Positions 30,401 to 51,764 of a DNA stretch of 64,000 nt are shown in pieces. The notes below the pieces were generated by a model. It saw only the letters and a program-made list of their open reading frames with translations. It did not search any database and was not told the origin of the DNA. This stretch comes from Pontiellaceae bacterium B1224 (GTDB lineage: Bacteria; Verrucomicrobiota; Kiritimatiellia; Kiritimatiellales; Pontiellaceae): positions 1 through 64,000 of the forward strand of contig JAROBA010000021.1 of the NCBI GenBank assembly GCA_029432815.1, in the 5' to 3' direction. The position numbers were made by a program, and so were the translations under genes. The first letter of the stretch is position 1. Every line of letters begins with the position of its first letter.

Positions 30401-33400
30401 TGTCGAATCCGGTGTTTGCGGGAGCGTCGCTCACCCTGACGAATTCAGCCGCGTTTATAGCCAAGCACAGCGGAACGGCCACGGTTGCCGATTTCCGGCT
30501 TGCGGGCGGCTGTTCGGTCGGCATGGTCAGCGGAACGTCTCTGGCTGGCGGGCTGACGCTGACCGGCAATGGCACGCTCTTTTTCAATGCCTCGACAGCA
30601 AACCGCAAGCTCTCCATTGATTCGTTGATGAATGCGGGTTCCGGGATTGAGGCCATCCAGATTTATGTGGGCGGCGATTGGGATGCGAGCGCATTCAAAA
30701 ATACCGGTTTCACGTTTACCGATTCCAATAACCACTTTGACGGATTGTGGGATGTGCAGGGCGGCTTTCTCAAGGGTAGCGGCTTCGGCTCCGGCAGCTT
30801 TCGGGTGCACGATATGGGCTATCTCGATTTCGATGCCGACTTTACCGGCAGCGAAAGCGATCTGACCATTCTGTCCGGTGGCCTGGTCAAGCTGGACCAG
30901 GATGTGACGGTTCAAACGATGACGATTGACGGCCAGGTGGTCTTCGCCGGAACCTATACCGGGAGCCAGTTGAAATCGCTGTATCCTTCCGCATTTGATG
31001 CCTCGTCGTTGGACAGTTCTGAGTTGGAGGTGTTGGCTCCGCATCCGGCGGCAACCATCACCTGGACGGGTTCGGAGGGCGGACAGTGGACGAACGCATC
31101 CAACTGGGATCTCGCCCGTGTACCTTCCATGCTCGATACCATCGTTATTGCAGATGATCACAACATCGCTGTGGATACGGATGTGAGCCTGAACGGCGGA
31201 AGCATGGCTTATGCGTTGACGGCCGGCAGCCATGCGCTGTCGTTGGTGAATGGATCCGACCTGAGCCTGGCAAACGGAGCGGATGTGGATTTGGTTTCCG
31301 AGTTGTCTCTGTCGGATGGTTCCGAGCTGAACATTTCCGGCAGTGGCAATCTGTTCAGTGCGTATCGGCTCGTGGTTGAATCCAATGCCACGGTGGTTGT
31401 GGTTGCTGACCGGCAGGGCTTTACTCCGATCACACTGGATGACCGCCTTGTTCCGCAACCGGGCAGCAAGCTGACGATCGATCTGCGTGAATATGATATT
31501 GCCAACGGCGATGAACTGACGCTCTTCAGTGCGGCATCCGCACCGGATCAGCCATTCAGCACGGTTGAAATCATCAGCGATCTCAACGCGACGCTGACCG
31601 GAACGAATTCCAATGTCTGGACCGTTTCGATGGTCACGCCCAGTATGATTCCGGTGATGGAGGGCGGAACGGCTCCAAACTCGTTTGCCGAGGTGTGGGC
31701 GGGGTATAACCCGACCGTGGAGCCGCTGAATATGGAAATCATGCGCGAGTGGACGGAAGGGGATCTTACCCTGCGCGCGGTCCGTTATGACATCGGCACG
31801 TTCACCACGCCGTACGGCGGCACGCAGGTGTCGAAAATGTCCGGCTTCTACGGCTTCCCGACCGGCGCAACTAACGCCCCGGCGATTCTTCAGATTCACG
31901 GTGGCGGCGGACGTGCATTGCTAGATGAGGTGCGCTATGCCGCAAACAACGGCTATGCCTGCCTGTCCCAGAACTGGCTGGGCAATGAACTCGAAGGAGC
32001 CGCGCCGGGCGAGCCGAACACGGAGTGGGGCTCGGTCGATGCGCGCCAAGGCTACCATCAGGCTACCTTCATCACCGTCGAGCCGGATACAAAAACCATC
32101 GATCGCGTGGCCTCGCCGCGTAACAGCAACTGGTTCCTGCTCTGCGTCGCCAACCGACGCGGCTTGACCTTCCTGCAACAGCAGGCAGAAACGGACGGCG
32201 TCCGGCTGGGTGTGACCGGCTTTTCCATGGGAGGGGAGCAGACCACCTATCTGAGCGGAGTCGACGACCGCCTGTGGGCAGCCGCACCAAGTGTCGGGGG
32301 TTCCGGGGAGATGACGCAGGAAGACATCGATGCCACCGGATTGCCCGGTTTCCACGATGGACTACGCAATCGGACCGAAATGTCCAAGATGGCCGTTTGT
32401 AAAGCCACCATGCCGACCATTACCACACCGATCCTGTATTGGGGGCCGGCCAACGACTTTAATGCGCCGAGCGATAATCTGATGTACAACTATGAACAGC
32501 TGATTCCGCCGACTACGGATCGACGCTTCTCGATTCCGCCGCACATGAGTCATCAGAATATTCCGGAAAATCAGATCACCGCCATGTTCTGGTTTAACCA
32601 GCAGATGAAAGGGGATTATACGCTGCCCGATCAGCCTGTGATCTCCATGGATCTGACGGGTTCGGATGAAGGGCCGGTGGTGACGGTTACGGCCGATACC
32701 TCCAAGCCCATCACCAAGGTGGAAATCTTCTATACGATCGATGAACAGCCGCGTACCCGCTTCTGGCGTGCGGCACTGGATGTGACCCAAACCGGTTCCA
32801 ATGAGTGGAAAGGAACCTGCCGCAACATCGTGCAGGGCCAGCCGTTGATTACGTATGCCAATGTGTTTTATGATTATGATCACAGCTCCTACACGATCGT
32901 GAACCGGGGCGACTCCGTGCCGTACACCGGGGACTACCTGCTGAGCTCCAACCTGAAGCAAATCCCGGCACAGGACATGATCGATGCGGGGACCTCGTTC
33001 ATTGCCGACGGCAAGGCGATGCTGTGGGATGATTTCACGCGGGATTGGCAGGACTGGCTGCATAAGAGCTGGACCAGCAGCACCGGATGGCAGGCGTATA
33101 CGCTGAAACCCAAGGATCCGTTTTACAAAGGCTTCCCGAATGCGGTGCTGGCGATGGATATTAAATCCAGCTCGGCAAAGTCGCTCCTGATCGGCATCGA
33201 GACCAACGGACGCAGGGATATCGACAACGGCAGCGAGGTAACCTATGCCGTATTAAAGAGTGTGAGCGGTTCTGGGGATTGGGAAACCATCACCATTGAC
33301 CCGTCCGAGTTTCGTCCGGTTGTGACCGGCGAAGAACCATTCAGCGATTTTACACGGGTATCCTGGCTGTTTCTGCGGTCGGGTAATATGACGGTGTATA

Positions 33401-33837
33401 ACTCTGACGGAAGCAGCGAAACGCTTTCAGCCTCCAGCTGGACGGAAGCCGAGCGCCGGTTTGCCAATCTGCGCTGGATCGTTCCGGCGTCTTCCTGGCA
33501 GTCGGAGTACAGCCTTTCCAATGACTGGACAGAAGATGTGGATGGCGATGGGTTGAGTGCGCTTGAGGAATACGCTTTTGACTTCAACCCGCTGACCTAC
33601 GACAGCCAGGGCTTTGCACCGTTTTCGCTCAATTCATCCGGTGAGCTGGAGGCACGGTATCTGGAGATGCAGGCCGATGTTCGGTATGATGTTGAAGCAA
33701 CGACCAACCTCGTTGACGGGGTCTGGACGAATGCCGGTGTAACCTTCAACACCGACGCATCCGGCATGACCATCGGCACCGTACCGCCGGACAAAGACGA
33801 GCGCTTCATCCACCTCAAACTTCAGTTGCTCCCATAG
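27439..33837 (+). CDS. giant secreted triple-esterase protein (SASA + SGNH + alpha/beta-hydrolase)
   Basis: A 2132-residue secreted protein (Sec signal 1-20). In order: a beta-domain (21-195); a sialate-O-acetylesterase/CE6-like SGNH domain (about 200-450; Ser212 in AGQSN, HQGESD, DGTHFN); a second GDSL/SGNH lipase-type domain (about 462-665; Ser467 in GDSI, GVGGNK, GIND, and an SDTVHMNATG acid/His segment); autotransporter-type beta repeats (about 668-1320); an alpha/beta-hydrolase esterase homologous to the genes at 7381 and 43267 (about 1405-1760; Ser1596 in GFSMGG, HGGGG, PPHMSH); the companion beta-module (WDDFTRDWQDW); a DVDGDGLSALEEY Ca-type segment; and the C-terminal module (YDVEATTNL). 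Probably a surface deacylase for a heavily esterified glycan. GGAGAG precedes the ATG. Confidence 0.82.
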   Translation: MKKILCAYAVCLFAAVFTRAEVVAEFNFTGDSAASSDSSIYSTVSAFNVGVGAIGGDLISASGAETTLGGDVDPAGTGAQYHSFNVTVAGLGAGETLDLTSLTYTYTVLSPLNMAVGLYSSVDGFASTAAQLDGVDTGSDYTNPQTFNQTATLSGAGFTGLENNDVIEFRFYLADSSSSAGRHHQLDDIVLNGSVQGGVVGGIDVYLIAGQSNADGRGATNDLTGRLAGWAGEQTNAPTYYANPINGDPINPSYLTGWTNLMPGLSVAPGYTGGLPSPTFGPGISFEKMMADSDPNQEIALIKVTKGGSNLYSNWSPAGNGFMWQTFTNHVTVAMQQLADAGETATIRGLIWHQGESDISRTSAEYTADLISFLAAVRSFTGNANLPIVMGELSDTYSARTVDMNAVAALDPNTAIASSDGLATQDGTHFNPVSQLRLGRRFAATLQSPPASSALVNNDTLVFLGDSITAAGTDPGGYITLFAADVAAAYPASGIQVIGAGVGGNKVADLMARLDADVLSQNPSIVVIYIGINDVWHWTKPDPVTGLPREGTTAENYHAGLIDLVLRVEAAGARAVLCTPTVISEAADPNDPNYVMLEEFSAICRTVAQQTGSQLVDLRNIFTDYNLLNNTADATAGILTSDTVHMNATGNQLIADTLIDAFSVSAATNVGMTITQTGANGINESWETGADWSDGNPASAGNDYVNQASGRISRTPAVSGPVFPGASLTMTNGAILRCKHSGTALISDLRISAGSQLDNGGASCSIDGNLTLMGSGAVNFDSQISSRLTTIESLVTADATIDTINIYMTQTPWTAASDTGGFVLNNANNDFSGTWNVSAGMLKGSGLGLANFNIGALGFLDIDGTYLNTNATLTIESGGVMLLDEFVSVGSATLWGVALSPGLYSGSDLKADAGYGGAFDSASLDTATLAVGVDAEPPQPLVVQTVGHGAGSLLGWEDAATWSDGLTPSADKDYVNNSSAMQTRSPQLSNPVFAGASLTLTNSAAFIAKHSGTATVADFRLAGGCSVGMVSGTSLAGGLTLTGNGTLFFNASTANRKLSIDSLMNAGSGIEAIQIYVGGDWDASAFKNTGFTFTDSNNHFDGLWDVQGGFLKGSGFGSGSFRVHDMGYLDFDADFTGSESDLTILSGGLVKLDQDVTVQTMTIDGQVVFAGTYTGSQLKSLYPSAFDASSLDSSELEVLAPHPAATITWTGSEGGQWTNASNWDLARVPSMLDTIVIADDHNIAVDTDVSLNGGSMAYALTAGSHALSLVNGSDLSLANGADVDLVSELSLSDGSELNISGSGNLFSAYRLVVESNATVVVVADRQGFTPITLDDRLVPQPGSKLTIDLREYDIANGDELTLFSAASAPDQPFSTVEIISDLNATLTGTNSNVWTVSMVTPSMIPVMEGGTAPNSFAEVWAGYNPTVEPLNMEIMREWTEGDLTLRAVRYDIGTFTTPYGGTQVSKMSGFYGFPTGATNAPAILQIHGGGGRALLDEVRYAANNGYACLSQNWLGNELEGAAPGEPNTEWGSVDARQGYHQATFITVEPDTKTIDRVASPRNSNWFLLCVANRRGLTFLQQQAETDGVRLGVTGFSMGGEQTTYLSGVDDRLWAAAPSVGGSGEMTQEDIDATGLPGFHDGLRNRTEMSKMAVCKATMPTITTPILYWGPANDFNAPSDNLMYNYEQLIPPTTDRRFSIPPHMSHQNIPENQITAMFWFNQQMKGDYTLPDQPVISMDLTGSDEGPVVTVTADTSKPITKVEIFYTIDEQPRTRFWRAALDVTQTGSNEWKGTCRNIVQGQPLITYANVFYDYDHSSYTIVNRGDSVPYTGDYLLSSNLKQIPAQDMIDAGTSFIADGKAMLWDDFTRDWQDWLHKSWTSSTGWQAYTLKPKDPFYKGFPNAVLAMDIKSSSAKSLLIGIETNGRRDIDNGSEVTYAVLKSVSGSGDWETITIDPSEFRPVVTGEEPFSDFTRVSWLFLRSGNMTVYNSDGSSETLSASSWTEAERRFANLRWIVPASSWQSEYSLSNDWTEDVDGDGLSALEEYAFDFNPLTYDSQGFAPFSLNSSGELEARYLEMQADVRYDVEATTNLVDGVWTNAGVTFNTDASGMTIGTVPPDKDERFIHLKLQLLP

Positions 33838-38334: not shown

Positions 38335-38533
38335 ATGTTTGTAAAAAAAGTGAGCAGGAGCATCAGTGTTTATGCATGCCTTTGGGTTGATCCTGGCTGC
38401 GGGGGTTCCGGCAGTTCCAAAACCGAATATTGTCCAGATTCAGGTTTCGGAAGAGGGTCATCATCTGCTTGCATACAAATTGCTCGACAGCCGACTCGAT
38501 GAAATCAAAGAAGTATTATGGAGAAAAATATGA
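38335..38533 (+). pseudogene. frameshifted 5' remnant, possibly of a sulfatase
   Basis: An ATG at 38335 with an AAGGAA ribosome site opens a basic signal start (MFVKKVSRSISVYA). After a shift of frame (the second frame opens at 38372) the text continues as GLILAAGVPAVPKPNIV, the usual signal end plus KPNIV opening of secreted sulfatases. The rest of a sulfatase is missing. The second frame stops in an ATGA overlap with the start of the next gene. Read as a decayed gene start; a real 53-residue peptide is the alternative. Confidence 0.45.
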
Positions 38534-39465
38534 AGACAAAATTTATGCCTCTGTTCATGTGGGCCTGTTTGGGAACCGGTGGATGGCTGCAGGTTTCCAA
38601 TGCTGCTATCACGCTGGAAAATCTCAACAGCGTAACACAAACCGGTAACTGGACGGGATCGAGTGTCGGCGAATCGACATTAGTTGTCGATGATGCGACT
38701 GGAAATCGTGGTGCATTGTTCGGGCGGGACGGTCTGGACCTAACCGCTAATTTCACCAGTGCCGGATCGTTGGCTTCCGGTGTAACCATCACGTATGACC
38801 TCGGGCTTCGGCGAACGGACTCAACCGCGCGAACCATGATGATGAAAGGGATTGATTCCGGAGGGAACGTCCTCTTTGTGCTCGGCCTGCAGGGAGATGA
38901 TGGAAGTAGTAGTGATGGGCACGAGCGGCTGGTTGTTTTCAGCGAGGATTTTACGGGCAGTCCAACGGGAGGCGGGGGCGGCACGATTACCTACCTCGGA
39001 ACCATTGGCACATTTGTTAAAGGAACCAATGCTTACGATGAGGACATCATGCATACGGTCAAACTTGTGTTGTCGGCAAGCAATTTCGACGTATTGGTCG
39101 ATGGCTCATTGGTGGCAAATGGTAATGATATTCCCTATTTCAGTGGCGCAGGAACCGATATTCAAGCGCTCAATTTTCAAACCGATATCGCCGGCGGCGC
39201 GTGGTACGATAACTTTGAGGTGATCGCGCTTGCCCCGAAGGAGGTTGTGCCAGCCTCGCTGGGCATGGTTGGGATGGTGGATGGAACCAATGCGGTTGTC
39301 GGGGCTTCGGGGTTCGGGACCGGTTCAGTGAACTCGTTGCAAATGTGTGATGACCTGCTGAGTAACAACTGGGTTACCGTCGCCACCACAACAGGGGTCG
39401 AGAGTGCCGAATGGGTGCTTTTGTCCACGAATTCATCTGCATTTTACCGGGTCATTTCTGAATAA
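38530..39465 (+). CDS. secreted jelly-roll (LamG-like) protein with C-terminal FYRV module
   Basis: A 311-residue secreted protein of unknown role (Sec signal about 1-26, ending VSNA-AI). I chose ATG 38530, downstream of GGAGA; an in-frame ATG at 38518 is possible. One beta-sandwich (about 30-232) has ITYDLGLRRT, MMMKGIDSGGNVLFVLGLQG and WYDNFEV strands of concanavalin/LamG type. The C-terminal module runs from NSLQMCDDL to FYRVISE. The beta-sandwich is duplicated in the next gene, where it is fused to a phosphatase. Likely glycan binding, by fold only. Confidence 0.7.
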   Translation: MKTKFMPLFMWACLGTGGWLQVSNAAITLENLNSVTQTGNWTGSSVGESTLVVDDATGNRGALFGRDGLDLTANFTSAGSLASGVTITYDLGLRRTDSTARTMMMKGIDSGGNVLFVLGLQGDDGSSSDGHERLVVFSEDFTGSPTGGGGGTITYLGTIGTFVKGTNAYDEDIMHTVKLVLSASNFDVLVDGSLVANGNDIPYFSGAGTDIQALNFQTDIAGGAWYDNFEVIALAPKEVVPASLGMVGMVDGTNAVVGASGFGTGSVNSLQMCDDLLSNNWVTVATTTGVESAEWVLLSTNSSAFYRVISE

Positions 39466-40232
39466 TGAAATCAAAAAACTCCATCTTAATAAGCAGGAGA
39501 AACGCTCTAATGAAAAATTCTTTATATCTTCCAGCCGCTGTCGTTTGTATGGCTCTCTTTACATTGGAGGCTCATGCGACCGCGTTGTTCAGTGCGGACT
39601 TTCAAGGTGGGGCTGACGGTTCTGCCACGGTGGGCAATCTCAACAGCGGAACGCAAATCGGAACCTGGGCGGGTTCGAGTATCGGCACATCGACTCTGGA
39701 CACTGCGGGCAGCAACCGGGGGGTGCTGTTTGGAAGGGACGGTCTGGACGTTACCGCTAATTTTAGTAGTGTCGGATCGCTGACCGCCGGTGTAACCATC
39801 ACGTATGACCTCGGGCTTCGTCGAACGGGCGATCCCACGCGAACCATGATGATGAAGGGGATTGATTCCGACGGGAACGTTCTCTTCGTGCTCGGCCTGC
39901 AGGGACACGATAGGTCGATTGATGTGGGGTACGGGCGACTGGTTGTTTTCAGTGAGGATTTTACAGGCAGCCCAACCGGAGGCGGGGGAGGCACGATTAC
40001 CTACCTCGGAACCAAGGGCACTTTCAGTAAAGGAACCGACGCATACAATGAGAGCATCATGCATGAGGTCAGTTTGGTTCTCTCTGCGAGCAGTTTCGAC
40101 GTGTACGTCGATGGCTCATTGGTAGAGAACGGGAATGATATTGCCTATTTCAGCGGCGCAGGAACCGATATTCAAGCGCTCAATTTCCAGGCCGATATAG
40201 CCGGCGGTGCCTGGTATGATAACTTCGAGGTA
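38620..40232 (+). repeat. tandem duplication of a 600-bp jelly-roll segment
   Basis: The segment 38620-39222 (603 bp) is repeated at 39636-40232 (597 bp), in frame in two neighbouring genes. Long stretches are nearly identical at the DNA level, for example around 38765-38890 and 39787-39904. The few differences keep the frame, so the duplication is recent and both copies are under selection for coding. Confidence 0.85.
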
Positions 40233-41678
40233 CAGGGGACGGGATTGTCCGTTCAGGAAGTCGTGCTCTTTGCCGCCGACTTTGAGGGAGAGATTGAGTT
40301 TGGGCCGGTTACTTTATCCGAAGCCCATAGAGGGACGCTGGAGATTGATCTGCGTATGCTGAATCAATATGAGGATCAGCCTCAGGAGGTGCAGGATTTT
40401 TATGCTGCTTGTCGGGAAGCATTCACTGGGGAGACTCCCGAGTCGGATGTGGCGGCAATCTGTCAGACTTCCAATCGTTGGAAGCTAGGTGGTCCGATGT
40501 TGGGCGATGTGACTACAACGAACGTTTCGGTTTGGACGCACCTGCCGGAATCGAGCGTTGTTGAAGTTACCGTGACCCCGGAAGCCGGTGGCGCGTCTCA
40601 AATCTTTCAGTCGAGTGAAACGAACCTGATGCCGGCGGTGCGTTGCGAGGGGCTTTTGCCGAATACGGCGTATACCTATCAAGTCGCAAATGCGGATGGA
40701 CAGGACTTAGGGGGTGGGCGTTTCGTGACAGCTCCGACTGCGTTAACAGAAGAAACGTTGCGTATCGCATTTGGGTCGTGCTTCCATAAAATCGGGCTCC
40801 ATCGGCCGGAGCTATTGGATCTCATTCAGGAGCGAGGCAACCGCGCAATGCTGGTGCTCGGCGATTCCGCCGTAGATGACCGGAAGAACGACTTCGGGTT
40901 AATCAACGCGGATTATTTGCTACGCAATCTGTCGCCGCCATGGCAGGAGATGACGGCGAATGTTCCGGTTTTCGCCGGATGGGATGACCATGATTATTGG
41001 CACGACGACTCCTTCGGTACGGAAACGAGAGGCCAGTGGATTGATGTTGAAGGATTGCGAAAAAACTGGAAAAGCCAGTGGAACAATCCGGATCGGGATG
41101 TGGAACGTGAGGGCATCTATTTTCAGACTCAAATCGGGCCGATACATTATATCGCCCTTGATACGCGCTCCTGCCGGGTGAATGATGCGCGTGGAGCTCT
41201 GAATTCATATTTGGGTGAAGAGCAAATGAACTGGTTGAAAGCGCAACTTAATGCATCGACTTCACCCTATATCCTTCTGAGCAGTGGCACGATGTGGAGC
41301 GATGATATCTCCGCTGGAAAAGATAGCTGGGGAACGTGGGATACCGCTGGACGGGAAGAGATCTTTCAACTGATTGACGCGAAAACGGATTCGCAGGTGA
41401 TTCTGCTGTCCGGTGACCGCCACGGTGCGCGCGGCTTTGCCATTCCGCGCCCCGGCGGCAAGAAAATCTACGAGTTTGAGGCCGCGACGCTGGGCGGAGT
41501 CCCTGGGCCTGGCGCGTGGGCAGACGACCCGATGAATCAGCTCTTTGGCTATACGGGTTCGGACTTCTGGGCCTTTGGTGAACTTTCGTTCAGTACAGTA
41601 ACGAATGAGCCTCAGGCGACCTTCCGCCTGATCGATGAAAATGGTGATGCTTTAGAAACAATTGTGCTGGAGAAGTGA
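39510..41678 (+). CDS. LamG-like domain fused to PhoD-type phosphatase, Sec-exported
   Basis: A 722-residue protein from ATG 39510 (AGGAGA ribosome site); an upstream ATG at 39465 lacks one. The Sec signal ends near AHA-TA. Residues about 25-240 are the jelly-roll domain duplicated from the previous gene. About 330-420 is a fibronectin-like PhoD N-terminal domain (WTHLPESSVVEVTVTP). About 420-722 is the PhoD metallophosphoesterase core: FGSCFH, LGDSAVDD, WDDHDYWHDD, and LSGDRHGARGF. Family members hydrolyse phosphomono- or diesters; sulfatase-like promiscuity is possible in this setting. The next gene is the same phosphatase without the jelly-roll and with a Tat signal. A TTCCAANNNTTGGAA copy lies inside, encoding TSNRWK. 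Confidence 0.85.
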   Translation: MKNSLYLPAAVVCMALFTLEAHATALFSADFQGGADGSATVGNLNSGTQIGTWAGSSIGTSTLDTAGSNRGVLFGRDGLDVTANFSSVGSLTAGVTITYDLGLRRTGDPTRTMMMKGIDSDGNVLFVLGLQGHDRSIDVGYGRLVVFSEDFTGSPTGGGGGTITYLGTKGTFSKGTDAYNESIMHEVSLVLSASSFDVYVDGSLVENGNDIAYFSGAGTDIQALNFQADIAGGAWYDNFEVQGTGLSVQEVVLFAADFEGEIEFGPVTLSEAHRGTLEIDLRMLNQYEDQPQEVQDFYAACREAFTGETPESDVAAICQTSNRWKLGGPMLGDVTTTNVSVWTHLPESSVVEVTVTPEAGGASQIFQSSETNLMPAVRCEGLLPNTAYTYQVANADGQDLGGGRFVTAPTALTEETLRIAFGSCFHKIGLHRPELLDLIQERGNRAMLVLGDSAVDDRKNDFGLINADYLLRNLSPPWQEMTANVPVFAGWDDHDYWHDDSFGTETRGQWIDVEGLRKNWKSQWNNPDRDVEREGIYFQTQIGPIHYIALDTRSCRVNDARGALNSYLGEEQMNWLKAQLNASTSPYILLSSGTMWSDDISAGKDSWGTWDTAGREEIFQLIDAKTDSQVILLSGDRHGARGFAIPRPGGKKIYEFEAATLGGVPGPGAWADDPMNQLFGYTGSDFWAFGELSFSTVTNEPQATFRLIDENGDALETIVLEK
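40469..40483. repeat. intragenic palindrome TTCCAA-TCG-TTGGAA
   Basis: Perfect copy in the coding sequence. The paralogous gene at 41743 encodes FKRAKLG at the matching place and lacks the palindrome, so the motif is not forced by the protein sequence. Confidence 0.75.
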
Positions 41679-41742
41679 AATCATAACCAACGTGCTGAAA
41701 ATTGAGCAAGATAAGGTTAAAGGAAGTAAAAGGACCATTGAA

Positions 41743-43263
41743 ATGAGTGAGTCGAAAAATAATGAGAACAAGGGGGCGAGTACGTTTCTGTCGAGCAAAG
41801 GCGGGATCTTGAGCGGTCGCCGGAGCTTTCTGGCCTATGCAGGCGTGGTAACGGTCGGTCTGGCAGCGCGGCCGGTTCGGGCTGAAGAAGAGTCCCGCAT
41901 AGTTTCGCTGAAGGAGGCGCACAAGGGGACGCTGGAAATTGATCTACGGATCATGAACCAATATGTCGAGCAGCCGCAGGTGGAGCTTGATTTTTATACC
42001 GGAGGTCGCACGGCGCTGACAGGGCCGAACCCGGAAGAGGCCCTGGCAGCACACTGTCGTAAATTCAAGCGCGCGAAGTTGGGTGGACCGATGTTGGGCG
42101 ATATCACTGCTGCCGGCGTTTCAGTTTGGCTGCATCTTCCTGAGCCGGTTTCGGTCGAAGTTAAAATGGCTCCGAAAACGGGCGGCGCATCGAAAACATT
42201 TACCTCGGAAGCGGCTCGGTTTCAGGTGGTGCGTTGCGAAGGGCTCCTGCCGGGCACAGAATATCGCTACACTGTGACCGATTCTAAGGACCGAAAGCTT
42301 GGCGGCGGTGATTTTGTGACGGCGCCGTCAGCGCTTTCAGAAAAGCCAATGAAGATCGCTTTTGGAACCTGTTTTCATAAAGTCGGGCTATACCGTCCTG
42401 AGTTGATGAAGCTGGTGCAGGAGCGGGGCAGCCGCGCGATGCTGGTGCTTGGCGATTCCGCCGTGGATGGTCGCGGGAACAACTACGGATTGGTTCAGGC
42501 TGATTATCTGCTGCGCAATCTATCTCAGCCGTGGCAACGGTTGACCGCGAATGTTCCGGTTTTTGCCATCTGGGATGACCACGACTATTGGGGCGACGAT
42601 TCGGGAGGTACCACAACGAGAGGTCGCTCGATTGATCCCGTAGGGCTGCGCAAAAGCTGGAAGACGCACTGGAACAATCCGGACCGGCAGGTGGATCGCA
42701 AGGGGATTTATTTCCAGACCCACATCGGCCCGATTCACTACATCGCGCTCGATACGCGTTCCTGCCGAATCCAGGAGGAGCGGGGGAAACGGAATTCGTT
42801 CCTTGGCAAAGAGCAGATGGACTGGCTGAAGCAGCAGATCCGGGAATCCACTTCGCCTTACATTCTGCTAAGCGGCGGTACGATGTGGAGCGATTATATC
42901 TCCAACGGAAAGGACAGCTGGGGCACCTGGGACACGGAAGGACGCGAAGAAATTTTCCAGGTAATCGATGCCAAGAAGGATACGCAGGTCATCCTGCTCT
43001 GCGGCGACCGCCACGGCGCACGCGGCTTTGCCATTCCTCGTCCGGACGGTAAGAAGATCTACGAGTTTGAAGTCGCCACGCTGGGCGGTGTTCCGGGGCC
43101 GGGGCCCTTCGGGGAAGACCGAAGCGCTCAGCTGTTCGGGCTGAAGAGCAGGTCATGGGCCTTTGGTGAATTTTCATTCTGTACAGCCGATGGCGTTCCT
43201 CAGGCGACCTTCCGTCTGGTCAATGAGCGCGGAGAAGAGGTGGAAACGGTTGTGCTGGATTAA
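41743..43263 (+). CDS. PhoD-type phosphatase, Tat-exported
   Basis: A 506-residue metallophosphoesterase. I chose ATG 41743 because it places the twin-arginine motif GRRSFLAYAG at residues 26-35, followed by a hydrophobic stretch and ARPVRA-EE; the longer frame from 41662 overlaps the previous gene. Core motifs match its neighbour: FGTCFH, LGDSAVDG, WDDHDYWGDD, CGDRHGARG. Fold and metal sites appear intact. The Tat route fits PhoD enzymes that load metal cofactors in the cytoplasm, whereas the fused copy uses Sec. It lies 64 bp after that gene and 3 bp before the esterase, in one transcription unit. Confidence 0.88.
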   Translation: MSESKNNENKGASTFLSSKGGILSGRRSFLAYAGVVTVGLAARPVRAEEESRIVSLKEAHKGTLEIDLRIMNQYVEQPQVELDFYTGGRTALTGPNPEEALAAHCRKFKRAKLGGPMLGDITAAGVSVWLHLPEPVSVEVKMAPKTGGASKTFTSEAARFQVVRCEGLLPGTEYRYTVTDSKDRKLGGGDFVTAPSALSEKPMKIAFGTCFHKVGLYRPELMKLVQERGSRAMLVLGDSAVDGRGNNYGLVQADYLLRNLSQPWQRLTANVPVFAIWDDHDYWGDDSGGTTTRGRSIDPVGLRKSWKTHWNNPDRQVDRKGIYFQTHIGPIHYIALDTRSCRIQEERGKRNSFLGKEQMDWLKQQIRESTSPYILLSGGTMWSDYISNGKDSWGTWDTEGREEIFQVIDAKKDTQVILLCGDRHGARGFAIPRPDGKKIYEFEVATLGGVPGPGPFGEDRSAQLFGLKSRSWAFGEFSFCTADGVPQATFRLVNERGEEVETVVLD

Positions 43264-43266
43264 TCG

Positions 43267-45435
43267 ATGAAAAAGCTATGTTTGTTAGTTTTTGGGTTGC
43301 TGTGCCAGTCGCTCATTGCAGAGGAGGACTCTCTGCCGCCGTTAAAGGATGGCCGGTCGCCTCAGACGGTTGTAGAGGCCTGGGCGGGCTATGATCCACA
43401 GGCTGAGTCGCTTGAGGTCGAGATATTCAAGGAGTGGGAAGAGGAAGGAATCATTTTTCGCGCGTTGCGGTACCGGATCGGGATCTTTAAAGGTCAAAAG
43501 GCGTGGATGGCTGCCCTGTACAGTTTTCCCAAAGGCGCAAAAAACCTGCCAGGCTTGGTTCAGGTACATGGCGGGGGCGGGTTTGCTACAACCAAGGAAG
43601 GTCTCAGTAATGGCAAACGGGGATATGCCACCATTTCTTTAAGTTGGCGAGGGGATGAGAAATATTTGGAAAGGCATGATCTGCCGCCAACGGCGCAAAC
43701 GGATTGGGGCGCTGTGGAAGGAAGGCAGGTTGCTGGAACCCGCGATGTGAAGTCGGAAAGCGAGAAGCACTACGATCCGGTGGATTCGGCACGGAACAAT
43801 GGATACTTTTTGCGGACCATTGCTGCGCGGCGCGCACTGACTTTTCTGGAGCAGCAGCCGGAAGTCGATGCAAACCGCCTGGGCGTAAATGGTTTTTCAA
43901 TGGGCGGTGTCATCACCTTTATGACGGCTGCCATGGATTCGCGCGTGAAAGCGGCCGTTCCGTGGTGGGCGCCGCCCTTGGTGCTGGACGGCAGTCTGCT
44001 GGGACGAACCGCCAAATCGAATGCGTATGCGGAGCATATTAAGTGTCCATTGCTTATAATGGCACCTTCAAATGATTTTCATGGAAAGGCTGAAGATGTG
44101 GCGTGGATGATCGATCACATTCCAGGCAAAGACATCCGCATTGCCCGGTCTGTGCATTACAACCACAAGAACGATTCCGCTTCCATGGCAGCGAGAGAAC
44201 TGTGGCTTGATGCCAGGTTGAAAGGCGGATCGTCATTTCCGGTCCAGCCCGAAATCAGTGCTAATCTGAAAACATCTGACCGGCGACCGGAGATTACGGT
44301 TATTCCGGATGACTCGATGCCGATCTCCCATGTGGATCTATTTTACACGCGGGATGGGAACGAACCGGAGATGCGGACGCGCTACTGGCAATATGCCAAG
44401 GTCCGGCAACAGAGTGGAAACTATAGTGCCAGCCTGGATCTTTTTGAGATGGAAGAACCGGTGTGGGTATTCGCCAATGTCTATTATGCGCTGGAAGATT
44501 CCGGTGAATCCCGGGATCTAACGGAGGAGTCTGATACGTTTACGGTTTCCTCACGGCTGCAGATGTGGTCGGCCGAAGAGCTGAATCAAGCCGTCGTCAG
44601 GATGCAAAGTAAAACTACGCCGCTGATTGAACCCTTCGATGCGGACTGGGAAAAGGAGTGGATGGTTTTTGATTACAGGTGGGATTCATGGATACTGAAT
44701 AACCCGCGCGTCCCGATGCCCCGGTACGGCAGGCTGGTGCTCGACGTTCAGAGCGCCGACGCCAACCATCTGACGGTTGAGATCGGGGACTACCGCGGCA
44801 CTTTTAAGATGAAGGGTGGAGCCGATGCCCAACGGATTGAAATCTATCCCTTCGACCTGAAGGAAAAGAAGACCAAGGCAAGGCTGTTAAACTGGTCCGC
44901 TCTGAAGAGGCCGATGATCAGATTATCTACGAGCCGGAGCAAGCCTGAACCTTTGTTCAAGCGACTGGCCTGGGAAACGATTTCTGAGGCAGAGTTTATG
45001 GCCAAACGGCCCTTTCAGTTAGGAGAGGTCGGGAAAATAGATGGGAGTGTCATGCTCACTTTCGGACTGGCCGACCAGGTGGAAGGAAGATTCGATCCGG
45101 AGAACAAATCGGTCAAGGTCGACGAGTCAATTGCCGCAGTCGATGTTACAACCGGCCTGCAGGTGCACTCGCACAGCGAGCTGACCTATTTTCTGAGCGG
45201 AAAATTTTCAACGTTCTCGGCTTCGCTAATTCCATGTTACCAGGCATCGGTGACCTTTGAGGCCTATGCGGATGGGAAGAAGGTCTATGCGTCTGATTAT
45301 TTTAAAGGGAAAACCCCGCCCGAAGAGATTCGGATCGATGTTTCCGGCGCGCAAATGCTCAAGCTGATTGTGACCGAAGGCGGCAATGGCTGGGGAGGCG
45401 ACTGGGTCATGTGGGGGAATGCATCACTGCGATGA
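43267..45435 (+). CDS. secreted alpha/beta-hydrolase esterase with C-terminal NPCBM-like domain
   Basis: A 722-residue carbohydrate esterase (Sec signal about 1-19) homologous to the genes at 7381 and the C-terminal part of 27439. The core has QVHGGGG, nucleophile Ser211 in GFSMGG, APSNDFHG and SVHYNHKND (probable Asp and His). The companion beta-module begins near EPFDADWEKEW. Residues about 575-720 add a domain of NPCBM type (VDESIAAVDVTTGLQVHSHS...VTEGGNGWGGDWVMWGNA), a galactose-binding fold not present in the other two copies. It starts 3 bp after the phosphatase stop with no strong ribosome site, so coupled translation is likely. Probable deacetylase; acyl group and sugar unknown. Confidence 0.82.
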   Translation: MKKLCLLVFGLLCQSLIAEEDSLPPLKDGRSPQTVVEAWAGYDPQAESLEVEIFKEWEEEGIIFRALRYRIGIFKGQKAWMAALYSFPKGAKNLPGLVQVHGGGGFATTKEGLSNGKRGYATISLSWRGDEKYLERHDLPPTAQTDWGAVEGRQVAGTRDVKSESEKHYDPVDSARNNGYFLRTIAARRALTFLEQQPEVDANRLGVNGFSMGGVITFMTAAMDSRVKAAVPWWAPPLVLDGSLLGRTAKSNAYAEHIKCPLLIMAPSNDFHGKAEDVAWMIDHIPGKDIRIARSVHYNHKNDSASMAARELWLDARLKGGSSFPVQPEISANLKTSDRRPEITVIPDDSMPISHVDLFYTRDGNEPEMRTRYWQYAKVRQQSGNYSASLDLFEMEEPVWVFANVYYALEDSGESRDLTEESDTFTVSSRLQMWSAEELNQAVVRMQSKTTPLIEPFDADWEKEWMVFDYRWDSWILNNPRVPMPRYGRLVLDVQSADANHLTVEIGDYRGTFKMKGGADAQRIEIYPFDLKEKKTKARLLNWSALKRPMIRLSTSRSKPEPLFKRLAWETISEAEFMAKRPFQLGEVGKIDGSVMLTFGLADQVEGRFDPENKSVKVDESIAAVDVTTGLQVHSHSELTYFLSGKFSTFSASLIPCYQASVTFEAYADGKKVYASDYFKGKTPPEEIRIDVSGAQMLKLIVTEGGNGWGGDWVMWGNASLR

Positions 45436-45478
45436 GACCAAGGCGCAGTGACCGTGTCTTAATAAGGATCACTTGATA

Positions 45479-48310
45479 ATGAAAAATAGCATTAAACGAT
45501 TCGCGACCGGTGTGACGGCATTGCTTTGCACCTGTACCATGGGTTTGCACGCCGCTCCTGAGGACGGTTCGCATGCTGAAACAAATCGAAAAACGGATTG
45601 GACGTTTACACCGGATCCTGCTTTGCCGAATGTCCTTATTCTGGGCGATTCCATCTCGATTGGCTACACGAGACAGGTGCGTGAGCTGTTGAAAGGCAAG
45701 GCCAATGTATATCGGCCGGTGAGTAGCGATGGAACGCGTCCAAAAAACTGCAATGGAACCATGGTTGGGTTGAAGATTAGTGAACCCATGTTGAACGCAC
45801 ACCCATGGGATGTGATTCATTTTAATTGGGGGTTGCACGATCTCAAACATGTCAAAAAAGCACATACCAATATAAAGTCGAACGATCCGAATGATCCTCA
45901 GCAGTCCACACCTCAGGAATATGAGGCGAATCTGCGGAACATTGTTGCAGCACTGCGCAAGACGGATGCCCGGTTGGTCTTTGCAACCACCACGCCCGTT
46001 GTGCCCGGCACGCTGAACCCGCTCCGTACACCGGAGGCTCCGGTTGAATACAATGCCATTGCCGTGAAGATCATGGCAGACAACAACATTCGGGTGAACG
46101 ATCTTCATGCCTATTGTCTGCCGAATCTGGCGGAGTGGCAACAGCCTGAGAATGTGCACTTCAAGCCTAAAGGACAACAGGCGCTCGCAGAACGGGTGGC
46201 CGCTGTCATTGCGGAAGAGTTAGCAGAAAAAGAGAAGAACGCTTCAGCACCTTCTGTTGAAGACCCCATTGTCGGAGATAAGCCGATCATTCGCTTGTGG
46301 CCGATTGAACAGGTCGGCGGTGAGCCGAATCGGCTTCGTTATGACGTCACCAACCGCGGCAAGGTTCGGTACGAAAACGTGAAAGATCCGCATCTGGTCG
46401 TTTTTCCGACGCAGTCAAAAGGCCCGACGCCCGCCGTGCTTTATTGTCCGGGTGGTGGGTATAAGCACCTTACCCCGAAGCCGGAGGTGATCGACTGGCT
46501 GAACGAATGCGGGATCACGGTATTTATGCTCAGGTATACCGTACCGCATGACCGCGAAGCCGCCTTTTGCGATGTACAGCGCGCCATGTGCATGGTTCGG
46601 CACAGCGCTGGGAAATGGAATATTGACCCGAAGCAACTTGGGGTGCTGGGAAGCTCGGCTGGCGGGCATCTGGTTGCCCGGTTGAGCCAGAATCTCGAAC
46701 CCAGGGCGTATCCGGGCATTGACGCTGCGGATGAAGAGAGCTGCGAACCCGCATTCGTAATCCTGACCTCTGCGGCGTATCTCTTCAAAAAGGAGGGAAA
46801 GAAGGTTGTGCCTCTTCTCGCGAATGAATTTCACATGAACAATAACGTAGCCCCGACCTTCATGGTCTGCGCGAAAGATGATACCGCATTTTTCGCCGGT
46901 AATGTGGCGTACGAAAAGGCGCTGAGTGCTGCAGGAGGGTCGACACAGATTGTGATTTCGGAGACGGGTGGCCACGGTTTGAAGGAGGTCAACTGGTATC
47001 CGGAATGCCGGGAATGGTTGAAAGAACTGGGAATCAATATTAAAGAACAAAAGCAATGTTCATCGAAGCTGAACGTTATCCTGATCATGGCTGATGACAT
47101 CGCCTACGACAACAATTTCGGTGCATACGGTGCCCGAGAGTCCTGGACGCCGAGACTGGATCAACTGGCAAAAGAAGGCATGACCTTTGAACAGGCTTAT
47201 TCGACCCCCAAGTGCACACCCAGCCGCGTAAAGTTGATGACGGGGCGCAGCGGAATCCGGAACTACATCGGTTTCGGCTCATTGGCATCTTCTGAAATCA
47301 CCTTTGCCCAGATGCTTAAAGAGGCAGGATACAAAACGCATGTAGCCGGGAAATGGCAGCTTGATGATAAAGGGGGCACTCCAACCAGCGAGGCTGGTTT
47401 CGATTCGTGGATGCTCTGGAATACAGCGTCGGGGCGGGGGAGCCGTTATTGGGAGCCCAGTTTCGATGTGAACGGAACGTTTACCTCCTACGGCAAGGAG
47501 GTCTTTGGTCCCGATCTCTGCGTTCAATCGATTCTGGAATTCATCGAGGAAAACCGGGCGGGGCCGTTTTTGGTCTACTACCCGATGCTCCTCGTCCATG
47601 GGCCCTTCGTGACGACGCCTGACAGTGAAGTACACGAGCGCAAGGATTTGCAGGAAAACTTTAAGGATATGATCCAATATATGGATAAATGTGTGGGGCG
47701 GATTGTCGACGGGTTGAAGATCATGGGGCTTGCGGAGAATACGGTGGTGCTCTTCTGCAGTGATAACGGAACAAACCGGGCGCTTTCTTATGAGTCGTTC
47801 GGAAAAACTGTAGACGGGAAGAAGGGCGTTCCACACGACCGCGGCACGCACTCCCCGATGATTGTGCGTTGTCCGGGCACCGTATCGGCCGGAGCACGTT
47901 GCACCGACATCATCGATTTTTCTGATGTTCTGCCTACGCTGGCCGCTATTGGAAATGCGCAGCTGCCGAAGGTGGAACTCGACGGGCACAGTTTCTGGCC
48001 ACAGTGCCAAGGTAAACCGGGGAATCCGCGGGAATGGATTTTTCAGTATTACTGGCCGAAGAGCTGGAGCTGGATCCCGGATGAGCTGGGCGAAGAGGAG
48101 CTCGTCTGGGTGCACAATCAAAAATATAAGCTTCACGGAAACGGACTGTTTTACGACATTGTGAACGATCGCGAAGAGCTCAGTCCCATTCCGACGGAAC
48201 AGTTCACAGACGAACAGAAAAAAGTTTTCCAGCTGTTTAAAGAAGCCATGGCGTCTATGCCGGATACGAATGATGCCTATGCGAACAACCGGTCCAAAAA
48301 GGCGAAATAG
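45479..48310 (+). CDS. three-enzyme fusion: SGNH hydrolase, alpha/beta-hydrolase and S1 sulfatase
   Basis: A 943-residue secreted protein (ATG 45479 after AAGGA; Sec signal about 1-23). Residues about 40-250 form an SGNH/GDSL esterase (Ser58 in LGDSIS, NWGLHD, VHFKPKGQ with the His). About 265-525 form an alpha/beta-hydrolase of the BD-FAE/acetyl-esterase type (CPGGGY oxyanion loop, Ser393 in LGSSAGG, CAKDDTAFF acid, TGGHGL His). About 533-943 form an S1 sulfatase (VILIMADDIAYDN, CTPSR with Cys579, VAGKWQL, FCSDNGTN). All catalytic motifs look intact, so one chain could remove two kinds of acyl group and a sulfate. The frame is continuous with short linkers, not a sequencing merge. The second-domain join at KQCSSKLNVIL is very tight. 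Confidence 0.88.
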   Translation: MKNSIKRFATGVTALLCTCTMGLHAAPEDGSHAETNRKTDWTFTPDPALPNVLILGDSISIGYTRQVRELLKGKANVYRPVSSDGTRPKNCNGTMVGLKISEPMLNAHPWDVIHFNWGLHDLKHVKKAHTNIKSNDPNDPQQSTPQEYEANLRNIVAALRKTDARLVFATTTPVVPGTLNPLRTPEAPVEYNAIAVKIMADNNIRVNDLHAYCLPNLAEWQQPENVHFKPKGQQALAERVAAVIAEELAEKEKNASAPSVEDPIVGDKPIIRLWPIEQVGGEPNRLRYDVTNRGKVRYENVKDPHLVVFPTQSKGPTPAVLYCPGGGYKHLTPKPEVIDWLNECGITVFMLRYTVPHDREAAFCDVQRAMCMVRHSAGKWNIDPKQLGVLGSSAGGHLVARLSQNLEPRAYPGIDAADEESCEPAFVILTSAAYLFKKEGKKVVPLLANEFHMNNNVAPTFMVCAKDDTAFFAGNVAYEKALSAAGGSTQIVISETGGHGLKEVNWYPECREWLKELGINIKEQKQCSSKLNVILIMADDIAYDNNFGAYGARESWTPRLDQLAKEGMTFEQAYSTPKCTPSRVKLMTGRSGIRNYIGFGSLASSEITFAQMLKEAGYKTHVAGKWQLDDKGGTPTSEAGFDSWMLWNTASGRGSRYWEPSFDVNGTFTSYGKEVFGPDLCVQSILEFIEENRAGPFLVYYPMLLVHGPFVTTPDSEVHERKDLQENFKDMIQYMDKCVGRIVDGLKIMGLAENTVVLFCSDNGTNRALSYESFGKTVDGKKGVPHDRGTHSPMIVRCPGTVSAGARCTDIIDFSDVLPTLAAIGNAQLPKVELDGHSFWPQCQGKPGNPREWIFQYYWPKSWSWIPDELGEEELVWVHNQKYKLHGNGLFYDIVNDREELSPIPTEQFTDEQKKVFQLFKEAMASMPDTNDAYANNRSKKAK

Positions 48311-48356: not shown

Positions 48357-51300
48357 ATGGAAGCAAATGAAGAAACTATAAATCAGCAATTATGTTTCAC
48401 TCCATCCAGTGGACGCGGGCCGTCTCTTGGGCGCAGAACCTTTTTGGTGTCTGCCGGTACGGTGACGGCTGGCCTGGCCGCCGGCCCTGTTCTGGCGGCA
48501 GGTTACCGCAAGAAATACGCAGAGCTTGTCAAAGGGCACTCTGGCATCAGGGGTTACTGGCGCTTTGACGGGAAGCTCACTGATGAATTAGGCAAACAAC
48601 CCGCTGTTGAGGGGCCTGCGAACCTTGAGTTTGCGAAAGGCGCGGTGGAGGGGCAGGCTTTACACCTGACGCCGGGACAGCGTGTCGGCGTTCCCGGACT
48701 GGATGTCGTTGCGCGCGGCGCTGAAACGTTGGAGTTGTTCTTTAAGTTGAATGCCCTGCCGGACGAAACATACGATCCGGTGATTGTTTCCTGGGCATCC
48801 GAAGAGGTCGAACGCTTTATCCTGGGAGTGAAGCACGATTTATCGGGGCTGATCTGGAAGCAGGGCTATGCCGCCCATCATGTAACCTCTATCAAGCTTC
48901 CGACGGGAAAACCGGTTGAACTGGGGTGTTGGTATCACCTGACCATCATGAGTGAACAATATGATCTGCGCATGTATGTGAATGGATATGAATGTGCCCT
49001 GACGGGCGGGGCCATGCACATCAGCCGCCGATACAAGGAGAAGGTGGCCCCAATGACATTCGGCTATGTAGCCAGGGGGAAGGCTCGTGCTGCGAATATC
49101 GAAATTGATGAGTTCGCCCATTACGGCGAGGGGCTTTCCCTGGAGGAAGCTCGGAAACACCTGGTAGCCGGCGGTTGGAGCAAGCAGCTCGAAGCATACG
49201 GTCGCGAAGTCGAATCCTATCAAGGCAAATTGAAAAAGGTGCGCGAGAAGAAGCGGGCGTCTATTATGAACGATCCGGCGTTGGTGGCGCGCGGTGAGAG
49301 CACCGTCTATCAGGGAGAAAACCTTTCTGCTATTTCGTTCATGGTGGGCGGTATCGGTGCCGGTGCGGTTCAGTATAATGGCGAGGCCGAACCGGCGATC
49401 TGGCAGATCGCCTGCAACCACGACCAAACAAAAATTACAGACAGCTTCATGGCGATCCGGGCGCAGGCCGAAGGGGAAATACCTGTCATACGCGCCCTGC
49501 AGACAAAGTCGGTCGGACCCTTTGCGGCGATGAAGAGTCTGAAATTTATCGGAGAATACCCCATTGCCAGATATCAGTTTGAAGAGCCGGCGCTTCCGGT
49601 AGAGGTGGAACTGGAGCTGTTGAATCCTTTCACGCCGCTGGATCTGAAATCCTCGGCCATCCCCTGTATTGTCAGCACCGTAAAGGTCACGAATACATCA
49701 ACTGCCCGGGTTAAGGTTGATATCCTGGCCGCACAAAAGAATGTGGTCGGTTACACCTCCGGAGCAACGGGTTCCAAGCCGGCTTACGGACAAAACCGGA
49801 ACCGCCTGCTGCGCAAGGATGATGCGACGTTGCTGCATATGACCAAAGGCGGCGAGGGACAGGGGGGCGGAATGGATATGGTGCTGATGACTCAGGCGTC
49901 AGGCGCTTCGGGACTGGCCTCGTGGGATTCACAGGAAACACTGCACAGCACATTTTATAAAGCCGGGGAACTGAGCGGTTCAGATACAACCGACCTATCA
50001 ACAGCGGACCAGACTCAGAACGGGGTTCTGTCATCCCCTCTGGAGCTGGCTCCCGGAGCGTCAAAGTCGGTGACCTATGTCCTGACCTGGCATATGCCCC
50101 GGGCCGAGCATGGAGAGAAGGAGACGTGGACGCATAAAGGAAATATGTATACCAACTGGTGGCCCAATGCGATGGCGGTAGCGGATGATCTGCGGAATGA
50201 TCTGGATGATCTTACGGCGCGGACGCATCGTTTTCATGATTCATTCTATGCATCGAACTTGCCGCAGTGGTTATTGGACCGGCTGAGTTCACAGCTGGCC
50301 ACACTCCGGAGTCAGACCTGCTGGTGGGCGGCAGATGGATATTTTGGAGTGTATGAAGGGGTCGGGGCAAGCCAGGGCTGTTGCGCCGGAAACTGTGCCC
50401 ATGTCTGGCACTATGCGCAGTCACACGCCCGCCTGTTCCCGGAACTGGGGCGCAGGATGCGGGAGCAGGATTTCGACAACCAGAAAGACGACGGCCGGCT
50501 ACCCTTCCGGCATTCGCATCCGAACAGCCGTGCGACCGATGCGCAGTTCGGCACGATCCTGAATACCTATCGTGAATATCTATGCAGTAACGATGATGTA
50601 TGGTTGAAGGAGCAGTGGCCGAAACTGGAGCTGGCGATGAAATGGGCCATGGAGCAGTGGGATTCAGATCAGGATGGCTATATGGATGGGCGGCAGGATA
50701 ACACGCTGGATGGCCATATCTATGGATGCTCCTCCTGGCTTGGAACCATGTATTTGTCGACGCTCGAGGCGATGGCGCGCATGGCGGAAATTAATGAAAA
50801 CCCGCAGCTCGCCGCATCGTACCGAAAAATCCGCGCGTCCGGGCAGAAGCTACAAAACGAGCGTTTGTGGAATGGTGAATACTATATTCAGGAACCGGGC
50901 AAACAACGTAGTGGTGACTATTTCGATGGATGCCATATCGATCAGCTGCTCGGTGAATGGTGGGGAGAACAGGTGGGTGTTGATCGGAATTATCCGGCGG
51001 ACCGTTCGAAAAAGGCGATGGAGTCCTTGTTTAAATATAATTTCCACGCGGACTTCCACGGCCAGTCGATGCGACCCCGCCAGTTTGTGGCTGTAGAGGA
51101 TGGTGGCACCAAAATGATCACGTGGCCAAAGGGACAACGGCCTATTCCCTGCATGGATTACGGGGATGAGATTATGACCGGTTTTGAGTATGCCGCCGCC
51201 GCCACGATGATTCAGAATGGATTGCTTCGTGAGGGACTGACCGTGGTGAAAGCGAACCACGACCGTTATGACGGCCGAAAGAGGACCGAGAACATTTCGA

Positions 51301-51764
51301 AGTTGGGGGTCTGGGGCTACACCGGCAATCCCTTCGGCGATGATGAGTGCGGAAAGTTTTACGGTCGCGCTTTGAGCATCTGGTCGATGCTGCTGATGTT
51401 GCAGGGCTTCGAGTATGACGGTCCGGCAGGCCGCATTGGGTTTGCCCCGCGCTGGCAGCCCGAAGATCACGCCAGCTTCTTTACCGTTGCCGAAGGCTAT
51501 GGACTGTTTACACAAGAGCTGAATAAGAAAAAGCTTAACGCTTCTATTGATCTACGTGAAGGGCAACTGCGATTGACAGAGGTGCGATTAGCTTTTCCCT
51601 CAGGGATGAAACCCGCATCCGTGGACGTGAAGTTGGGCGTTCATGCGGTGCTGTCACGTTTTGAAATGAAAGGTGGGGCTTTGAGCATCCTATTGAAGAC
51701 TCCTCAGGTTCTGAAAGCGGATAAACAGCTTAATATTCGGGTGACGCATATAGAAAAAGATTGA
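48357..51764 (+). CDS. Tat-exported LamG-GH116 glycoside hydrolase
   Basis: A 1135-residue protein. The twin-arginine signal LGRRTFLVSAG (about 23-33) ends near VLA-AG. Residues about 55-265 are a LamG-type jelly roll (GYWRFDGKLTDELG, WYHLTIMSEQYDLRMYVNG). A coiled linker follows, then the GH116 region from SAISFMVGGIGAGAVQYNG. The barrel carries YEGVGASQGCCAGNCAHVWHYAQS in the nucleophile region and DSDQDGYMDGRQDNTLDGH in the acid/base region, then GRIGFAPRW near the end. It is more distant from the other two GH116 genes and the only one with a jelly-roll front. GGGAG precedes the ATG. It is last in the unit starting at 35551; its stop overlaps a gene remnant. Confidence 0.82.
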   Translation: MEANEETINQQLCFTPSSGRGPSLGRRTFLVSAGTVTAGLAAGPVLAAGYRKKYAELVKGHSGIRGYWRFDGKLTDELGKQPAVEGPANLEFAKGAVEGQALHLTPGQRVGVPGLDVVARGAETLELFFKLNALPDETYDPVIVSWASEEVERFILGVKHDLSGLIWKQGYAAHHVTSIKLPTGKPVELGCWYHLTIMSEQYDLRMYVNGYECALTGGAMHISRRYKEKVAPMTFGYVARGKARAANIEIDEFAHYGEGLSLEEARKHLVAGGWSKQLEAYGREVESYQGKLKKVREKKRASIMNDPALVARGESTVYQGENLSAISFMVGGIGAGAVQYNGEAEPAIWQIACNHDQTKITDSFMAIRAQAEGEIPVIRALQTKSVGPFAAMKSLKFIGEYPIARYQFEEPALPVEVELELLNPFTPLDLKSSAIPCIVSTVKVTNTSTARVKVDILAAQKNVVGYTSGATGSKPAYGQNRNRLLRKDDATLLHMTKGGEGQGGGMDMVLMTQASGASGLASWDSQETLHSTFYKAGELSGSDTTDLSTADQTQNGVLSSPLELAPGASKSVTYVLTWHMPRAEHGEKETWTHKGNMYTNWWPNAMAVADDLRNDLDDLTARTHRFHDSFYASNLPQWLLDRLSSQLATLRSQTCWWAADGYFGVYEGVGASQGCCAGNCAHVWHYAQSHARLFPELGRRMREQDFDNQKDDGRLPFRHSHPNSRATDAQFGTILNTYREYLCSNDDVWLKEQWPKLELAMKWAMEQWDSDQDGYMDGRQDNTLDGHIYGCSSWLGTMYLSTLEAMARMAEINENPQLAASYRKIRASGQKLQNERLWNGEYYIQEPGKQRSGDYFDGCHIDQLLGEWWGEQVGVDRNYPADRSKKAMESLFKYNFHADFHGQSMRPRQFVAVEDGGTKMITWPKGQRPIPCMDYGDEIMTGFEYAAAATMIQNGLLREGLTVVKANHDRYDGRKRTENISKLGVWGYTGNPFGDDECGKFYGRALSIWSMLLMLQGFEYDGPAGRIGFAPRWQPEDHASFFTVAEGYGLFTQELNKKKLNASIDLREGQLRLTEVRLAFPSGMKPASVDVKLGVHAVLSRFEMKGGALSILLKTPQVLKADKQLNIRVTHIEKD

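Follow-up and report, generated by a model that had tools for sequence, protein, structure and literature searches.

A single reading frame encoding an SGNH hydrolase, an alpha/beta-hydrolase and an S1 sulfatase in a Pontiellaceae bacterium

Chains in which an S1 sulfatase is joined to another carbohydrate-active enzyme have been described from two cultured Kiritimatiellales strains, F1 and F21, where the partners are GH10, GH32 and GH29 domains (PMC6388578), and are represented in the PDB by the GH78/sulfatase structure 6hr5. The F1 and F21 strains are sulfatase-rich relatives of the organism considered here, a Pontiellaceae bacterium of which we analysed a 64,000-nucleotide stretch of DNA (the window), contained in the 92.5-kb contig C118 of a 5.38-Mb draft assembly in 204 contigs; two genomes of its genus measure 8.7 and 7.4 Mb. 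The window encodes a fusion of the same broad kind, with an S1 sulfatase and other carbohydrate-active catalytic domains in one frame, but its partners are esterases rather than glycoside hydrolases, and it has three catalytic domains instead of two. A literature search for sulfatase-esterase fusions found no paper. The exact combination is new; its component families are known, and the group was already known for sulfatase fusions.

The frame runs for 943 amino acids from an ATG at 45479 to a stop codon ending at 48310, and its translation contains no internal stops. Its parts are:

45473..48310, forward strand: whole open reading frame, beginning with TTG at 45473; the likely start is the ATG at 45479, preceded by AAGGA.
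45479..45556, forward strand: putative Sec-type signal peptide, residues 1-26, with MKNSIKRFATGVTALLCTCTMGLHA ahead of APE, assigned by eye.
45611..46246, forward strand: SGNH/GDSL hydrolase domain, residues ~45-256, from PF13472 and conservation across 113 homologues.
46271..47029, forward strand: alpha/beta-hydrolase (ABH) domain of the BD-FAE/AxeA1-like acetylesterase type, residues ~265-517, from PF07859/PF20434, NCBIfam, Foldseek and invariant residues.
47027..47071, forward strand: fusion junction or linker, residues 517-531, from DNA alignment with contigs C6 and C233 of the relative G008.
47060..48307, forward strand: S1 formylglycine-type sulfatase domain, residues 528-943, from PF00884, residue tables, AlphaFold and Foldseek.

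A preliminary description of this DNA had placed all three domains in a single polypeptide, and this is borne out by the one frame and by Pfam, which recognises PF13472 (GDSL_2) over residues 55-235 (41.1 bits against a gathering cut-off of 32.9), PF07859 (Abhydrolase_3) and PF20434 (BD-FAE) both over residues 309-500 (39.4 bits against 25, and 36.5 against 26.8), and PF00884 (Sulfatase) over residues 532-823 (135.9 bits against 25). The nucleophile residues that it named, Ser58, Ser393 and Cys579, are correct and lie in G-D-S58, G-S-S393-A-G-G and C579-T-P-S-R. Linkers of ~13 residues between SGNH and ABH and of ~15 residues between ABH and sulfatase hold the chain together. The signal peptide of residues 1-26 would be the sole export signal in the fusion chain (AlphaFold gives a pLDDT of ~33 across residues 1-30), and with a single frame and one signal peptide, the coupling of deacylation and desulfation domains in one putatively secreted chain also stands. 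Chance domain resemblance is ruled out by the Pfam scores, by relatives that are 74-89% identical and by purifying selection. We also rejected a separate sulfatase translated from an internal start, as there is no in-frame ATG from the linker to the MADD motif and the sulfatase's signal peptide is gone.

Relatives of the window organism carry the same parts as free-standing genes. Sulfatases with their own signal peptides stand alone in the genomes G016 and G008, both 88% identical to the window sulfatase, and a free paralogue in the organism's own genome is 79% identical; in the clade tree, the window sulfatase groups with these free-standing copies with a support of 100/100, and this grouping indicates that the fusion is the derived state. 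The SGNH-ABH protein of G008 has 550 aa and no sulfatase; on another contig of that genome, an ABH copy stops at a TAG that lies 17 nt ahead of the start of the sulfatase, which has a signal peptide of its own. When the window is aligned with the G008 contigs C6 and C233, ~83 bp are absent from its junction, and the TAG stop is aligned to AAG: relative to G008, the window has lost the stop codon, the ribosome-binding site and the signal peptide of the sulfatase. Our best explanation, to which we give as a whole a probability of about 0.75, is that the fusion is genuine and recent and joins in frame an SGNH-ABH esterase gene and a secreted S1 sulfatase gene. The ancestor would have carried the two genes side by side in a polysaccharide-degradation cluster, and the loss of the three elements between them would have brought them into one frame.

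A second triple fusion occurs in G016, where a 1025-aa protein on the 253-kb contig C162 (L027:6546-10992) shares the domain order and the gene neighbourhood of the window fusion, with SGNH and ABH domains that are 89% and 75% identical to those of the window. Its sulfatase is of another subfamily, only ~27% identical to the window's and marked by CGASR and GKNH motifs, and the orthologue of the window sulfatase is a separate gene right after this triple fusion. The fusion of SGNH-ABH to its sulfatase in G016 is independent of that in the window. A free orthologue of the G016-fused sulfatase (82%) lies in the window organism's own genome on a contig with paralogues of the window ABH and sulfatase, and another lies in the genome G004, where a SASA-ABH esterase gene is 1.5 kb away; these neighbourhoods indicate that the esterase and both sulfatases belong to related clusters, fused or not.

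The coupling had been called unusual, which is right for the exact triple order but not for its pairwise components. We found that order only in the window and in G016, where the sulfatase is a different one; it was absent from the 80 loci listed from our contig scan of GTDB r220 and from the matches listed from ~600 genomes of the phylum. Partial fusions recur. The GTDB contig scan lists 75 loci of the SGNH family. A recognised sulfatase lies within the fetched DNA at 22 of them (in the same frame at three), and at 13 a sulfatase gene on the same strand is no more than 300 bp away; an ABH is fused at three, and the triple occurs at none. Pfam confirms sulfatase-SGNH fusions at five loci in Verrucomicrobiota and Planctomycetota (L038, L077, L085, L103 and L109), as well as an SGNH-sulfatase fusion in G004 (L033); these chains combine the window's SGNH family with an S1 sulfatase, but they lack the ABH, mostly have the sulfatase first, and use other sulfatase subfamilies. 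The window's esterase pair is found in the SGNH-ABH tandem esterases L089, L090, L100 and that of G008, which differ from the window protein in having no sulfatase and, in L089 and L090, in an extra N-terminal GDSL domain. Taken together, the SGNH, ABH and sulfatase families appear to be mixed and matched across relatives. The organism's own genome, that of a marine-type bacterium, has 100 sulfatase genes above the Pfam cut-off; a scan of 12 further long sulfatases revealed no second esterase-sulfatase fusion, the recognised partners there being non-catalytic modules such as Ig, LamG and PA14.

The genes that adjoin the fusion, identified by Pfam and tblastn synteny, are:

41662..43263, forward strand: PhoD-like phosphatase paralogue.
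43267..45435, forward strand: AXE1/DLH-type esterase with NPCBM, the upstream neighbour.
48357..51764, forward strand: GH116 with a LamG domain, the downstream neighbour.

In both G016 and G008, tblastn places PhoD directly 5' of the SGNH-ABH gene. A counterpart of the AXE1/DLH-type esterase adjoins the corresponding genes in G016 and the SGNH gene in Coraliomargarita, and GH116-LamG comes immediately after the free-standing sulfatase of G008 too. Elsewhere in the window, Pfam recognises glycoside hydrolases (GH95, GH43-CBM6, GH115, GH28 and, in all, three GH116 proteins), two more sulfatases and AXE1-like esterases. This neighbourhood suggests the breakdown of a heteropolysaccharide, the putative substrate being both sulfated and acylated.

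Several other features of these regions deserve mention. A 2132-aa protein at 27439-33837 of the window carries tandem SASA and GDSL esterase domains, and most of its chain has no Pfam match. The stretch at 38518-43263 is a repeated module in which the two PhoD proteins are paralogues; in G008, the sequences corresponding to the ORF at 38518 (315 aa) and to the PhoD N-terminus at 39465 cross-match at ~81% in DNA, pointing to a probable internal duplication. At two odd junctions in G008 (L025:1654-2433 and L026:8754-9000), an ABH is joined to a GH116 N-terminus and a sulfatase start is cut after LIMAD, which may reflect strain mixing, misassembly or real recombination.

The preliminary description considered all three active sites intact. 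The ABH triad is indeed complete and all three nucleophiles are present, but the SGNH domain is without its block-III Asn and block-V Asp, and the sulfatase, which keeps Cys579 and its other sulfate-site residues, has Gln627 for the GKxH His. These non-canonical residues at two of the three sites are, in our view, a more interesting point than the closeness of acyl and sulfate groups that the same description had drawn from the fusion.

In the sulfatase, the maturation motif C/S-x-P/A-x-R is present as C579-T-P-S-R (Cys579 at 47213-47215) and is invariant in the clade; also present are Arg583 and the calcium- and sulfate-site residues D539, D540, K625, H707, D762, N763 and K782. The second signature (PS00149 / SulfAtlas) is broken at the GKxH His, which is replaced by Gln627 (47357-47359), a residue common to all 18 sequences of what we call the GKWQ clade; this clade spans Kiritimatiellota and Planctomycetota and keeps the site's Cys, Arg, Lys, His, Asp and Lys in 18/18 sequences. 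In AtsA, the GKxH His (His115) is the base that eliminates sulfate, and the published updated signature admits H, L, G or N only at this position, with His in 81% of sequences (PMC5066984), so that the GKxH His is not universal among S1 sulfatases. The Gln627 substitution is a clade-wide variant and not decay. His791 (47849-47851) is a candidate replacement base: it occurs in 15 of the 18 GKWQ sulfatases versus 2 of 84 GKxH sulfatases, 65 of which have Arg there, although the co-occurrence of Gln627 and His791 may be explicable by shared descent. We modelled the SGNH-ABH pair and the sulfatase as two separate chains in AlphaFold; the sulfatase model (mean pLDDT 84.7, pTM 0.90) matches arylsulfatase A and PsS1_19B in Foldseek. 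Arylsulfatase A (1n2k) and the kappa-carrageenan sulfatases PsS1_19B (6psm) and S1_16 (9fo1) share the fold and the Cys/Ca/Lys/His/Asp site of the window sulfatase, from which they differ by an identity of 23-27% in the fold alignment and by GKWH rather than GKWQ.

The SGNH domain has the SGNH fold according to Pfam, but its predicted active site is not canonical. Ser58 (45650-45652) and His227 (46157-46159) are each invariant in 113/113 homologues, as are Asn90, Asn116 and Asp121. The Asn of the block-III GxND motif is absent, and its place is taken by His120 (45836-45838) in the motif GLHD; across the family, residue 120 is His in 102 of 113 sequences and Trp in the other 11. The invariant Asn116 and Asn90 may stand in for it. 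The non-canonical block-V stretch covers window positions 46148-46159: three residues before His227, where the DxxH motif has its Asp, the window has Glu224 and the family varies among A, K, R, N, V, G and E, a variability that points to a Ser-His dyad or to a different acidic residue. These departures are a family-wide trait and not decay.

The ABH domain has the most conventional site, with a triad of Ser393 (46655-46657), Asp468 (46880-46882) and His499 (46973-46975) that is invariant in 32/32 homologues. Its top sequence and fold matches are the acetyl xylan esterase 6a6o from Caldicellulosiruptor lactoaceticus, which is its best Foldseek match, BTAxe1 (7dwc) and the AxeA1 and PaeX families. 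Its identity to the two structures is 24-26%, and its best NCBIfam match, the AxeA1 equivalog NF042968, scores 100.9 bits against a cut-off of 700 (for PaeX, 76 bits against 550), so far below the equivalog level that the substrate is not transferable. Relatives of this domain are elsewhere fused also to GH28, SASA and GDSL domains according to Pfam. One paralogue in the organism's own genome is fused to a GH28 polygalacturonase-type domain in a 762-aa protein (L028:6884-9169).

We read the protein as a secreted multifunctional enzyme, probably functional, that would deacylate and desulfate one polysaccharide. Because the organism's own genome encodes an anaerobic sulfatase-maturing enzyme (anSME; TIGR03942, 516.6 bits against a cut-off of 349) and eight FGE-domain proteins, maturation of Cys579 to formylglycine is plausible. 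The anSME would carry out this conversion in the cytoplasm, ahead of export, and the one signal peptide would then take the whole three-domain chain across. Judging from their families and the gene neighbourhood, the two esterase domains would strip acyl, probably acetyl, groups from a polysaccharide from which the sulfatase would strip a sulfate, and together these steps would clear the way for the GH116, GH115, GH28, GH43 and GH95 enzymes of the cluster.

An assembly chimera or a sequencing error, with the two genes separate in the organism, is a very improbable origin of the frame. The draft state of the assembly speaks for it, as do contigs of the relative G008 that have truncated or odd junctions at the fusion locus; however, the 201-bp stretch spanning the junction is a single-copy sequence in the genome, its two flanks have no matches other than their known paralogues (at 80% and 87%), and the longest other matches of the linker are ~16-23 bp. 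A simple base-call error could not cause the loss of the sulfatase signal peptide, the flanking gene order agrees with that of relatives on both sides, and G016 carries a triple fusion of independent origin on a contig of 253 kb. A frame error at the junctions, which the preliminary description had named as a way in which its reading could fail, was looked for and none was found. We therefore set aside a frame error or chimera on the grounds of the unique junction, the conserved flanks and the independent G016 fusion.

Granted that the fusion is genuine, its chemistry could be read more tightly or more loosely than we do. If acyl and sulfate groups sat on the same or neighbouring sugars, as the preliminary description had proposed, the fusion might channel one oligosaccharide from site to site; the short linkers, the joining of the SGNH-ABH unit to sulfatases at least twice, and the nearness or fusion of sulfatases to the listed SGNH loci (22 and 13 of 75) are in keeping with this. 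We nevertheless think it unlikely, as the domains occur, and function, as separate proteins in relatives, the fusion of neighbouring genes indicates a shared pathway and not shared sugar residues, the sulfatases of the two triple fusions are so dissimilar that differing sulfate positions are likely, and the AlphaFold model of the SGNH-ABH pair (mean pLDDT 84.0, pTM 0.57) is confident within domains but loose in their mutual orientation, giving no fixed geometry. At the other extreme, the SGNH domain, the GKWQ sulfatase or both could now be non-catalytic, serving as binding modules or in other chemistry. The absence of textbook catalytic residues does make the activity of both domains uncertain: the SGNH family has His or Trp for the block-III Asn and lacks a conserved Asp three residues ahead of His227, and the sulfatase has, at the position of the sulfate-eliminating base, a Gln that falls outside the updated signature. 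An invariant nucleophile is, however, rarely retained by dead enzymes, and here the nucleophiles and remaining site residues are strictly conserved throughout the SGNH family and the sulfatase clade. Purifying selection on both domains is also strong: dN/dS is 0.09-0.12 for SGNH, 0.15-0.21 for ABH and 0.05-0.10 for the sulfatase (its lowest value from a distant paralogue comparison in which dS is saturated), and, with a dN of 0.063, the fused sulfatase shows no acceleration over its free counterparts (0.071). We hold a loss of catalysis to be quite unlikely on this evidence. A trifunctional secreted enzyme with two unusual centres, in which the sulfatase would use a base other than the GKxH His (His791 being the candidate) and the SGNH domain would work without the block-III Asn and block-V Asp, is a tentative possibility, held well short of even odds.

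For the secreted multifunctional enzyme that we favour, the joining of the genes provides an independent line of evidence that one polysaccharide is the target of both the esterase and the sulfatase families concerned, evidence that is otherwise hard to obtain where a genome holds ~100 sulfatases and few substrates are known. The GKWQ sulfatase clade and the SGNH family without the Asn and Asp offer testable exceptions to textbook mechanisms, and sister genomes, which between them carry fused and separate forms, provide a natural experiment that could tell whether there is a benefit in linking deacylation to desulfation.
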